Source: a virus. From it: 43,274 nt of DNA. This document shows positions 3,979-6,566 of the stretch, piece after piece. The notes beneath the pieces were generated by a model. That model did no database searches, was not told where the DNA came from, and worked only from the letters and a program-made list of their open reading frames with translations. A program made the position numbers and the translations under genes. Position 1 is the stretch's first letter. Each line of letters starts with the position of its first letter. Where the stretch lies: positions 1-43,274 of IMG/VR virus record IMGVR_UViG_3300010885_025206. One strand, 5' to 3'.

Positions 3979-4712
3979 TTACGCAAGGACAGGGATCGCC
4001 CAGAACATTCGGCGGCCAGACGGGCAAGTCGCTCGCCGAAGGCTTCGTCACGGTCAAGACGGCTGGCATCCGCGAGCTGGCGGAGGAGTTGCAGGCGATT
4101 GCCGCCAAGATGGGCGAGCCGAAAGCTCTTGAGGATGCGGTAAAAAAGGCCGCCGAGCATATTAGGCGTGGGTATCGAGCCAAGGTTGGAAACGCCACAG
4201 GCAATCTCAAGAAGTCGGTCAGGATCAAGACGAAAACCTACGACGCCGCCGCGGTCGCTATCGTCGGCCCGTGGCAGACTGGCACAGGAAGCGCTACAGA
4301 AAAAGACGGTTCGGGCAACCACGCATGGCTCGTCGAATGGGGCACCGACCGCCGTAAGCCTGGGACGAAGGGGCGTCGGACGTACCTCAACGTCCATCAG
4401 TTGATCAACGGGAAGATGCGACGGCACTCGTCGGCGAACAATCAGCAGTTCGCAAATATGTCGAGAGGCTACTACTTTCTGATGGGCAGCATCAAAGAAG
4501 CAACGCGGCAGGCCCGCATGGGCAAGGGATACCCGCACGACTTCGGGTACACCAACGGGAAGATGCACCCGATCACGCTCCACCCAGGCGATACCTACCC
4601 GGCGATGCCAGCGAAGCACGCGATGCAAAAAACCATTGACGAGCAGCAGGGGGCCGTATTCAACACGCTGAAGGCCGCCATCGAAAACACGCTGGCGAGG
4701 CTCACGCAATGA
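3975..4712 (+). CDS. HK97 gp10-like neck / tail completion protein
   Basis: A 245-residue protein matching the HK97-gp10 family in architecture: N-terminal helix GIRELAEELQAIAAKMG, a second helix with AAEHIRRGYRAKVGNATGNLKKSVRIK, then a WLVEWGTDRRK segment. Members act in head-tail joining or tail completion. It is longer than the usual 110-150 residues because of a C-terminal extension with a His- and aromatic-rich stretch (PHDFGYTNGKMHPITLHPGDTYPAMPAKHAM). The order head closure, gp10-like, tail terminator is the standard siphophage order, which supports the call. ATG overlaps the previous stop. Confidence 0.8.
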   Translation: MITQGQGSPRTFGGQTGKSLAEGFVTVKTAGIRELAEELQAIAAKMGEPKALEDAVKKAAEHIRRGYRAKVGNATGNLKKSVRIKTKTYDAAAVAIVGPWQTGTGSATEKDGSGNHAWLVEWGTDRRKPGTKGRRTYLNVHQLINGKMRRHSSANNQQFANMSRGYYFLMGSIKEATRQARMGKGYPHDFGYTNGKMHPITLHPGDTYPAMPAKHAMQKTIDEQQGAVFNTLKAAIENTLARLTQ

Positions 4713-5134
4713 TCATCTCGCCCGAAAAGCACGTTTTTCAGAGGCTTGTCACCACCCCCGCGGTGGCGAGGCTTGTGGGCTTTCAAGTGTTTCCGATTGC
4801 CGTACCAAAGACCGCCGTGCTGCCATTTTGCGTCTATAAGCGGAATAACATTACTAGAGACTCCAGCCTTGTCGGGCCTCTCTATCAGCCTGTTGTTCAT
4901 CTTCAGATCGCCTCCTGGGCTCTCTACTACGACGCGGCACGCGAGCTTGCAGACGAGGTGAGAATTGCTTTGGATGGACGCACCGGCACCCTCGCGGGCA
5001 GTACAATTAGTGATATACGGCTCGTTTCGGAAACGGATGACTATCTAGACCCGGCAGCCGTGGGAGCCCAGCTCCCTCCCGCATACGAGGTACGACAACT
5101 ATTTCAGATTCGGTGGTCAGAGGCCACTGAATAA
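4709..5134 (+). CDS. Tail terminator (DUF3168-like)
   Basis: A 141-residue protein of the gp17/gpU-like tail terminator type, which caps the tail tube and joins it to the neck. The pattern TPAVARLVGFQVFPIAVPKTAVLPFCVYKRN near the N-terminus, then VVHLQIASWALYYDAARELADEVRIAL and a late RQLFQIRW strand, is that of DUF3168 proteins. ATG overlaps the previous stop (ATGA). It precedes the tail tube genes, as expected. Moderately divergent but consistent in length and order. Confidence 0.75.
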   Translation: MIISPEKHVFQRLVTTPAVARLVGFQVFPIAVPKTAVLPFCVYKRNNITRDSSLVGPLYQPVVHLQIASWALYYDAARELADEVRIALDGRTGTLAGSTISDIRLVSETDDYLDPAAVGAQLPPAYEVRQLFQIRWSEATE

Positions 5135-5158: not shown

Positions 5159-5488
5159 ATGGCCGGTACTGCTGCAATGGGCGTGTCGATGACCTACGCG
5201 GGCACGACGCTCACGATCACGAGTTTCAATGTCAACGACACGATCGACAACGCTGACGGTTCGCACCTCGGCATCGCTCCAGGCGGCCGCCGCGAGTACG
5301 TCCCGACTTTCGTTCAGCGAGAAATCTCCTGCGACTACATCGGCGCGACGGTTGTCTCGGCCCAGACCGGATCGATCTCGATCAGCGGCCCTGTCTCGTT
5401 CACGGGCGGCGCAACGCTTCAGTCTTCGACTGTCAGCGGAGCCCTCGGCGACCTTATCAAGGGCAGTGCGACTTGGCGGGTGGCCTAA
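5159..5488 (+). CDS. Small tail-tube-like protein, first copy
   Basis: A 109-residue beta-rich protein (MAGTAAMGVSMTYAGTTLTITSFNV...) preceded by AAGGAGG. It shares its start (MAG..A.G....) and ending pattern (SGxLxxGSxxW/F) with the next gene, and the two look like distant relatives. Place, size and beta composition suggest a tail tube or tube-associated protein. Which of the two forms the main tube cannot be decided from sequence. It could also be a minor tail or head protein. Confidence 0.55.
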   Translation: MAGTAAMGVSMTYAGTTLTITSFNVNDTIDNADGSHLGIAPGGRREYVPTFVQREISCDYIGATVVSAQTGSISISGPVSFTGGATLQSSTVSGALGDLIKGSATWRVA

Positions 5489-5508
5489 CGCTCTGGAGGT
5501 GACCCGAC

Positions 5509-5874
5509 ATGGCCGGGGCCACCGCAAACGGCGCGACGTTCTCCTTCTTGGGCTTCAGCGGCACGCTGACCGGCATCTCCGTGGAGATGCCCACGGCCGA
5601 GGTCACGAACATGACCGGCGTTGGTGCTGGCCGCGGATACACAGTTATGGTGCCGACCGGAGAACAATCCGGCGGCACCATAACTGTGGACTTCCTGACC
5701 ATCAACGCCGACCCCTGGGCGTTTGTGAAGCTGGCTGGCATCCTGACGTTCACGTCGCCGGGATACAGCATCAGCCGCCGCGTGATATGCGAATCAGCAA
5801 CTGTGTCTGCACAGTCTGGCGAGTTGGTTCGCGGTTCTCTCAAGTTTCTTATGACTGACTACACAGGCGCATAG
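5509..5874 (+). CDS. Probable major tail tube protein, second copy
   Basis: A 121-residue beta-rich protein (MAGATANGATFSFLGFSGTLTGISVEMP...). Its order immediately before the frameshifted tail chaperones is where siphophages keep the major tail protein. The closing segment SGELVRGSLKFLMTDYTG fits the last strands of tube proteins. The middle of the gene encodes TVMVPTGEQSGGTITVDF through an almost perfect 49-nt inverted repeat (5640-5688), which is unusual inside a coding sequence. GGAGGT at 5495-5500 is a good ribosome site. Family assignment rests mainly on context. Confidence 0.6.
   Translation: MAGATANGATFSFLGFSGTLTGISVEMPTAEVTNMTGVGAGRGYTVMVPTGEQSGGTITVDFLTINADPWAFVKLAGILTFTSPGYSISRRVICESATVSAQSGELVRGSLKFLMTDYTGA
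5640..5688 (+). repeat. Long perfect hairpin inside the tail-tube gene
   Basis: CACAGTTATGGTGCC (5640-5654) is the exact reverse complement of 5674-5688. Inside it, G5655 pairs with C5673 and CCGG (5657-5660) pairs with CCGG (5669-5672) after one unpaired A, leaving loop AGAACAAT. The whole is a 20-bp stem with one bulge, far longer than other coding-sequence hairpins in the window. No function is known to me. Confidence 0.85.
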
Positions 5875-5919
5875 TCGGCAGGATGCCGCACCGCACGCAC
5901 TTTTTTGGAGCAGATCGAA

Positions 5920-6291
5920 ATGGCACTTGATCGTAAAAGCATCCTGGCTGTCGATGACGTTCGCAAGGAGAAGTTCGCCGTTCCCGAGTGGAAAGGTGAC
6001 GTGTTTCTTCGTGTTCTCACCGGCACCGACCGCGATCGTTTCGAGGAGTCCTACGCTGACCAGAAGATGAAGGCGTTTCGCATTCGTTTCCTCCTGCTCG
6101 CCTTGTGCGACGAGGACGGCGAGCGGCTCTTCAGCGACGACGAGGCTGACGTTCTGGGGAAGAAGTCGTCGGTCGTGATCAATCGACTGTTCGAGGCCGG
6201 CTGGAAGCTGAACGCCTTCACGCAGGAGGCCGTGGATGGCCTGGGGGAAGATTCGCCCGCCGCCCCGAGCGACGTTTCTACTTCCGCCTAG
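5920..6291 (+). CDS. Tail assembly chaperone, G-like (upstream partner)
   Basis: A 123-residue soluble protein starting at ATG 5920 with GGAG at 5907-5910. An in-frame TTG at 5905 is possible but lies on the ribosome site. Composition is acidic and helical, with VFLRVLTGTDRDRFEESYADQK and ...AFRIRFLLLALCDEDGERLFSDDEADVLGKKS, which is the typical GpG-like tail chaperone pattern (TDRDRFE..., LL.L.LCDEDG..LFSD.D...L). These proteins bind the tape measure during tail assembly and are not kept in the virion. It precedes a shorter T-like frame, with a candidate -1 slip site near its end. Confidence 0.82.
   Translation: MALDRKSILAVDDVRKEKFAVPEWKGDVFLRVLTGTDRDRFEESYADQKMKAFRIRFLLLALCDEDGERLFSDDEADVLGKKSSVVINRLFEAGWKLNAFTQEAVDGLGEDSPAAPSDVSTSA
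6243..6249 (+). promoter_or_regulatory. Candidate -1 ribosomal frameshift site (G-GT type)
   Basis: The run GGGGGAA is read G-GGG-GAA in the upstream chaperone frame. Slipping back one base gives a continuous frame GRFARRPERRFYFRLAATLGMSV... into the downstream gene. FYFRLAATLGMSVKKLL reads as genuine T-domain sequence although it lies upstream of that gene's ATG at 6306. The A-site codon re-pairs imperfectly, so the exact slip point is uncertain. Confidence 0.55.
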
Positions 6292-6305: not shown

Positions 6306-6566
6306 ATGAGCGTTAAAAAGCTGTTGCAGGAGGTTGACAGCAAGGAGATCGCCGAGTGGTACGCATTCGATCAGCGATGGCCGCTGCCTGACCCTTGGGG
6401 CCAGACGGCGCGACTGTGCCGGGTGATCATGGCGTCGTCTGGGAATTACAAGAAGCACGACATCCCAGACGAGGCCGCGTTCATCCCAACTGTCGTCAAG
6501 CCAGAGCAATCGCAGCAGCAGTTGATGGCCGAGCTGATGAAACTGAACACGCCAATCCAGGGATGA
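6306..6566 (+). CDS. Tail assembly chaperone, T-like domain (made as a frameshift fusion)
   Basis: An 86-residue stretch read in the -1 frame relative to the upstream chaperone. MSVKKLLQEVDSKEIAEWYAFDQRWPLPDPWG matches the T-like/DUF4035 pattern (GMTVxELLxxxSxxELxEWxAFxxxxP). The same frame stays open upstream to about 6234 and encodes the first helix of that domain (FYFRLAATL), so the natural product is probably a G-T fusion of about 215 residues, with ATG 6306 only an internal methionine or a secondary start. The T domain recruits tail tube subunits to the tape measure. It lies 4 nt before the tape measure gene, the canonical order. Confidence 0.72.
   Translation: MSVKKLLQEVDSKEIAEWYAFDQRWPLPDPWGQTARLCRVIMASSGNYKKHDIPDEAAFIPTVVKPEQSQQQLMAELMKLNTPIQG

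Follow-up and report, generated by a model that had tools for sequence, protein, structure and literature searches.

A clade-specific stem-loop, apparently under selection, within the coding sequence of a predicted phage tail-tube gene

RNA viruses are well known to carry conserved RNA structures within their reading frames. Functional elements in the coding sequences of these viruses are found by synonymous constraint, and combine a local synonymous dip with covarying base pairs in an intact reading frame. The hairpin described here, at positions 5640-5688 of a 43,274-base virus record (the window, i.e., the whole stretch of DNA analysed), is alike in these respects, but it lies in a structural gene of a tailed DNA phage, and its arms coincide with the two strands of a protein beta-hairpin, much of the pairing being given by the protein. 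It also resembles the ribosome-pausing coding stem-loops that stimulate frameshifting in E. coli dnaX and HIV gag-pol (PMC8861025), being a stable in-frame stem-loop with a core of similar size and a loop of unimportant sequence. In contrast to these, no slippery heptamer was seen at the right distance and there is no sign of a frameshift product (the synonymous rate is at or above average past codon 60), and its full stem, as present in the window, exceeds theirs in length. Stem-loops of 11-12 bp within a coding sequence can slow ribosomes 15-20 fold, stem length and loop outweighing stability, and a longer stem can abolish pausing (PMC8861025); a 21-bp stem therefore need not pause ribosomes. 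A report on Nematomorpha mitochondria (PMC6649704) describes inverted repeats in protein-coding genes too; those palindromes are numerous and up to 284 bp long, whereas the tube hairpin is a single, conserved, short element. No Rfam family scored above its gathering threshold for the hairpin. The best bacterial near-match to positions 5638-5690 was the DUF3800-IV RNA (RF02963), a simple long hairpin, with 26.5 bits against a gathering score of 60.7 (E = 0.13), most likely a chance similarity of simple hairpins. A limited literature search returned no report of a conserved coding-region RNA structure in a tail-tube gene.

The window contains capsid, connector, tail and replication genes. The gene that carries the hairpin (5509-5874, + strand, 121 aa) is flanked upstream by Tail_completion_gp17 (4709-5134) and downstream by a tail assembly chaperone gene (phrog_344). 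An AlphaFold2 (AF2) model of its product, built from 35 homologues, has a tube fold with moderate confidence (pLDDT 75, and 54-73 in the hairpin region). The best PDB matches of this model in Foldseek were phage tail proteins, including the tubes of Sf11, phage 812 and lambda gpV (probability 1.00, E 1e-3 to 1e-2), and BFVD returned a match named "tail tube protein" (E = 1.3e-4). The modelled fold and the place before the tail chaperone both identify the gene as one predicted to encode the tail-tube (major tail) protein, in agreement with the original prediction. No match to the protein was found among the INPHARED cultured phages (tblastn, E 0.01), and no relative in the genome collection. 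The start codon is preceded by a perfect Shine-Dalgarno sequence, GGAGGTGA (5495-5502, +), and a conserved CCCGAC spacer; the Shine-Dalgarno, which is kept in most close relatives and missing in L108 and L116, fits with high expression. An upstream gene of 109 aa (5159-5488, +) likewise starts with MAG and has a VPT motif, without such a hairpin; it has no family match and may be a tube-like paralogue.

The hairpin, all on the + strand, was confirmed at the coordinates first proposed for it, with some correction of its dimensions. It had been described as a 20-bp stem with one bulge containing a 15-bp exact repeat; the bulge stands, the exact repeat is 16 bp, and the stem has 21 bp in total. 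The 5' outer arm CACAGTTATGGTGCCG (5640-5655, codons 44-49), delimited by folding and the inverted repeat, codes for much of strand E46-54 of the AF2 model and pairs over its whole length with the 3' outer arm CGGCACCATAACTGTG (5673-5688, codons 55-60), which contains a rare isoleucine codon, ATA. A bulged A (5656), with which the conserved ACC codon for Thr50 begins, separates the outer stem from 5 bp formed, according to the fold, by the inner arms CCGGA (5657-5661) and TCCGG (5668-5672). The loop proper is GAACAA (5662-5667, codons 52-53), which is variable beyond Glu52; the loop initially reported, AGAACAAT, takes in the closing A-U pair. The bulged A does not vary across 25 aligned hairpins, which is uninformative since Thr50 fixes A5656. 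The minimum free energy of the hairpin is -39.6 kcal/mol, a value that none of 200 dinucleotide shuffles reached (z = -11.5). The hairpin is the most stable of the 1365 coding windows of 72 nt and, of the perfect inverted repeats in the window whose arms lie within 60 nt, the longest. Inside a longer mRNA stretch its base-pair probability was 1.0 in 29 of 30 genes. Independent contigs from many metagenomes carry the hairpin, so it is no assembly artefact, a possibility that had been raised as a potential refutation.

A good part of this symmetry comes with the protein. The arms code for the antiparallel strands E46-54 and E57-64 of a beta-hairpin in the AF2 model, and in the outer arms the facing codons are antiparallel and in register, third positions pairing with third positions: Val (GTN) lies opposite Thr (ACN), Pro (CCN) opposite Gly (GGN), and Met or Ile (ATN) opposite Ile (ATN). 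After the bulge the register is shifted and Gly faces Ser or Ala (NCN). As the genetic code makes the V/T, P/G and M/I codons complementary at positions 1 and 2, many pairs come with the protein, which strongly favours a hairpin; about two-thirds are protein-favoured, and only about one-third are free to test. The earlier view that the RNA symmetry is not forced by the protein is thus only in part correct; with positions 1 and 2 favoured, the wobble positions provide the fair test, and there pairing exceeds the synonymous expectation. More generally, beta-hairpins rich in Val, Thr, Pro and Gly yield RNA hairpins by the genetic code alone, and synonymous controls are needed. When synonymous codons were shuffled in the window's genome alone, the hairpin was 8th of 1365 (z = -3.5), the protein accounting for a good share of its pairing; given this modest rank, the case rests on the relatives, where it is strong.

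Protein-based scans of IMG/VR gave 73 loci from one query alignment and more loci with three other queries, and the close set used below consists of 30 distinct genes, namely the window's gene and relatives at 59-83% amino-acid identity. Synonymous-codon shuffles that keep the protein and the codon usage gave a mean z of -3.8 at the hairpin in these 30 genes, and in 23 of them none of 200 shuffles reached its stability. Of the core pairs that depend on wobble bases, 95.6% were formed, whereas resampling of synonymous codons according to their usage in the clade predicts 48% (sd 3.5). Synonymous change at codons 46-58 was 0.41-0.47 of expectation, and near or above 1 on either side (column permutation, p = 0.0017). 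The value of 0.47 takes all neighbouring genes as its reference, in which two sequences differ on average at 44% of 4-fold codons, and is among the lowest of 916 windows in six genes. GTG48, ACC50 and GGC56, with usages of 0.33, 0.25 and 0.55 in the window, are unchanged in all 30 genes. ATA accounts for 9% of the Ile codons in the window, yet for 25 of the 29 Ile codons at position 58, and well-populated Ile columns elsewhere in the tube gene are mostly ATC. The median z of the synonymous shuffles was -3.6 at the hairpin and never below -1.8 in the four neighbouring genes scanned, the hairpin being the strongest conserved local structure in the tube gene and these four. The structure is thus very probably under selection at the nucleic-acid level, and the message of the tube gene itself, not only its protein, appears to be selected.

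Several other candidate features were considered and rejected. An overlapping gene could produce synonymous constraint, and almost every relative has a largely open +3 frame, but the constraint is limited to codons 46-60. A masked internal start at Met47 was dismissed, some relatives having GCG, ATA, ATT or GTG instead. For a programmed -1 frameshift stimulator, the upstream codons vary, no slippery heptamer was seen by eye, and there is no synonymous constraint after codon 60. An intrinsic terminator would not fit the sequence that follows the stem, GACTTCCTGACC, which has no T run, and the hairpin is absent from the terminator scan. Of two further possible hairpins in the tube gene, that at codons 22-28 is mostly accounted for by common codons and conserved residues, and that at codons 31-37 failed in the register tested.

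Compensatory changes across related phages, the check that the original prediction had put forward, were found at 6 of the 21 pairs, which have changes on both sides in 25 distinct aligned hairpins, on several branches. The covariation score was 0.127 against 0.065 in shuffled alignments (0 of 500 as high, in a control that leaves relatedness in), and at most 0.041 in slid registers, in which 31-61% was paired. Pair changes were mapped on a tree made without the hairpin codons. About four separate branches have a switch of pair 51.3/54.1 between C-G and A-T, in which the third base of the Gly51 codon tracks residue 54 (Ala or Ser). Pair 47.3/57.3 went from G-C to A-T in L083 and L086 (ATG..ACC to ATA..ACT), pair 44.3/60.3 from C-G to G-C in L046, pair 46.3/58.3 to G-C in L096, and pair 45.3/59.3 between C-G and G-C in both directions. 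There are exceptions: pair 49.3/55.3 is A-A in L108, and in seven close genes TTC46 with ATA58 makes a C-A mismatch, for which pairing in the RNA offers no explanation. Mismatches interrupt the outer stem in many relatives, and only about 14 bp are kept.

When 75 distinct genes were placed on a tree, those with the strong hairpin made up one large group that includes the window. At the edge of this group lie L148 (z = -5.0, with G-U pairs at changed residues) and L116, and L046, which adjoins it, also carries the hairpin (z = -3.5); L108, a close lineage (z = -0.8), and L150 are without it. Distant homologues keep the protein, and in most of them the pairing is absent (mean z -0.8); at 38-60% identity, z ranges from +1 to -2.8 in most of the other homologues, with the motif kept. 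Since the distant homologues and L108 keep the protein without the pairing, the hairpin is, on this comparison of sequences, a clade-specific coding-region RNA element that is dispensable for the protein. Relatives of this kind had been named beforehand as potential counter-evidence; those outside the clade and L108 limit the element to the clade and do not refute it. The core was found in 41 viral stretches, always in the same gene and at the same place, and in none of the bacterial genomes of the genome collection; it causes no length change either, and the suggestion that it is a leftover of a small mobile element is not supported. A set of tube genes at about 52% identity (L184-L192) has another protein motif, VMVPTGA..SPGSVTV, with z from -1.8 to -2.7, and one of them, L187, has by eye another outer stem, ACGGTCA/TGACCGT; this stem is possibly an independent version of the hairpin.

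We tentatively favour the reading that this clade-specific stem-loop in the tail-tube coding sequence is selected and acts in the mRNA as a brake on elongation. That it acts as mRNA rather than as DNA is probable; that ribosome slowing is its main effect is plausible but rather doubtful. Selection would have tuned the third positions so that a quasi-palindrome given by the protein became a strong stem, with a core of some 14 bp and the bulge at codons 47-57. Ribosomes would meet this stem some 43-47 codons past a strong start site and slow down, which may space them, time the folding of tube subunits or shield a heavily used message, and the rare ATA codon could add to the slow-down. The comparative results lend real support to the idea of an RNA function, and the original proposal that the stem may control translation or mRNA processing is compatible with them. 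If translation control is true, the hairpin would be a natural, compact example of a phage tuning the output of an abundant tail protein. One might further speculate that the hairpin is dual-coded, the RNA arms coding for both beta strands and the stem slowing the ribosome as the beta-hairpin is made, so that the structure of the message would suit that of the protein, in aid of the folding or stoichiometry of an abundant tail protein throughout a clade of phages. We regard this as rather unlikely. Provided that the hairpin controls translation, the coinciding RNA and protein hairpins would also offer a clean test of mRNA structure aiding protein folding.

Tail-gene proteins are needed in very different amounts, and the duplex could instead set the levels of the tail-gene messages relative to one another, either through cleavage of an RNase III type or as a barrier to exonucleases. 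The 21 bp at -39.6 kcal/mol, the location among tail genes and a second conserved hairpin after the stop codon would all suit such a role in mRNA processing or stability, which we nonetheless think unlikely, as cleavage within the reading frame would destroy the tube message and the 14 bp or so kept in many relatives are short for RNase III. The stem-loop with its bulged A and 6-nt loop is also analogous in form to the operators of single-stranded RNA phages, which are bound by coat protein and regulate translation. A phage or host protein might bind it to the same end, though this analogy is weakened by Thr50, which fixes the bulged A, by a loop that is variable beyond Glu52, and by the distance from the ribosome-binding site (the hairpin begins 131 nt past the start codon); we hold such an operator to be quite improbable.

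Template switching by DNA polymerase can create stems and explain compensatory changes (PMC8794818), and with two-thirds or so of the pairs favoured by the protein, one arm might be copied from the other in a quasi-palindrome made by the protein, without any selection. Pairs maintained in this way should be perfect but drifting, whereas G-C persists at core pairs 48/56 and 49/55 in 30 of 30 and 29 of 30 genes. Unlike the core pairs, 4-fold sites outside the hairpin have a median of 5 changes each on the tree (range 0-10), the difference in parsimony changes between 4-fold sites inside and outside being modest (Mann-Whitney test, p = 0.025), and no such correction is seen where distant homologues have similar protein motifs. 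We thus consider a purely mutational origin very unlikely. A site acting as DNA, either a dyad bound by protein or a cruciform extruded for recombination, replication or packaging, likewise has a slim chance of being correct: the ATA kept even opposite C (seven sequences) hints at sequence recognition, but pairs switch among CG, GC and AT, which a sequence-specific site would not tolerate, and the inverted repeat has no second copy in the window and none was found elsewhere. Finally, a mere by-product of the complementary codon faces (V/T, P/G, M/I, G/S-A) of a conserved beta-hairpin and of shared ancestry, for which the unexceptional single-genome z (8th of 1365) might be cited, is hardly tenable, as synonymous shuffles retain the protein contribution and the mean z is still -3.8, wobble pairs reach 96% against 48%, and most distant homologues, although they share much of the motif, do not form this fold.

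Some further features of the region deserve mention. The Shine-Dalgarno and spacer of the tube gene, GGAGGTGACCCGAC (5495-5508, +), share GGTG-CC-GAC with the 5' arm of the hairpin and are kept, spacer included, in most close relatives; between the 3' arm and the ribosome-binding site only short complementarity was seen by eye. Directly past the tube stop codon, upstream of the chaperone gene, is a short hairpin, CGGCA-GGA-TGCCG (5876-5888, +), whose stem differs among relatives but stays paired (CGCGA/TCGCG in L095, AGGCA/TGCCT in L116) and whose AGGA/GGA loop is constant in close relatives; we take it to resemble a CsrA/Rsm-type GGA-loop site. Within the tail terminator gene, a second strong patch of synonymous constraint (4973-5038, +, observed/expected about 0.44) includes a nearly invariant stretch, ACAATTAGTGATATACGGCTC (5003-5023), which is AT-rich against a genome of 61% GC. 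No sigma-70 match was found in this patch, which may hold an internal promoter that serves the tail-tube genes. The chaperone ORF (5905-6291) contains CTG GGG GAA close to its end (6241-6252, +), beside a -1 frame ORF (6306-6566) that is matched in 29 aligned sequences; this arrangement looks like the usual G/GT-type frameshift.
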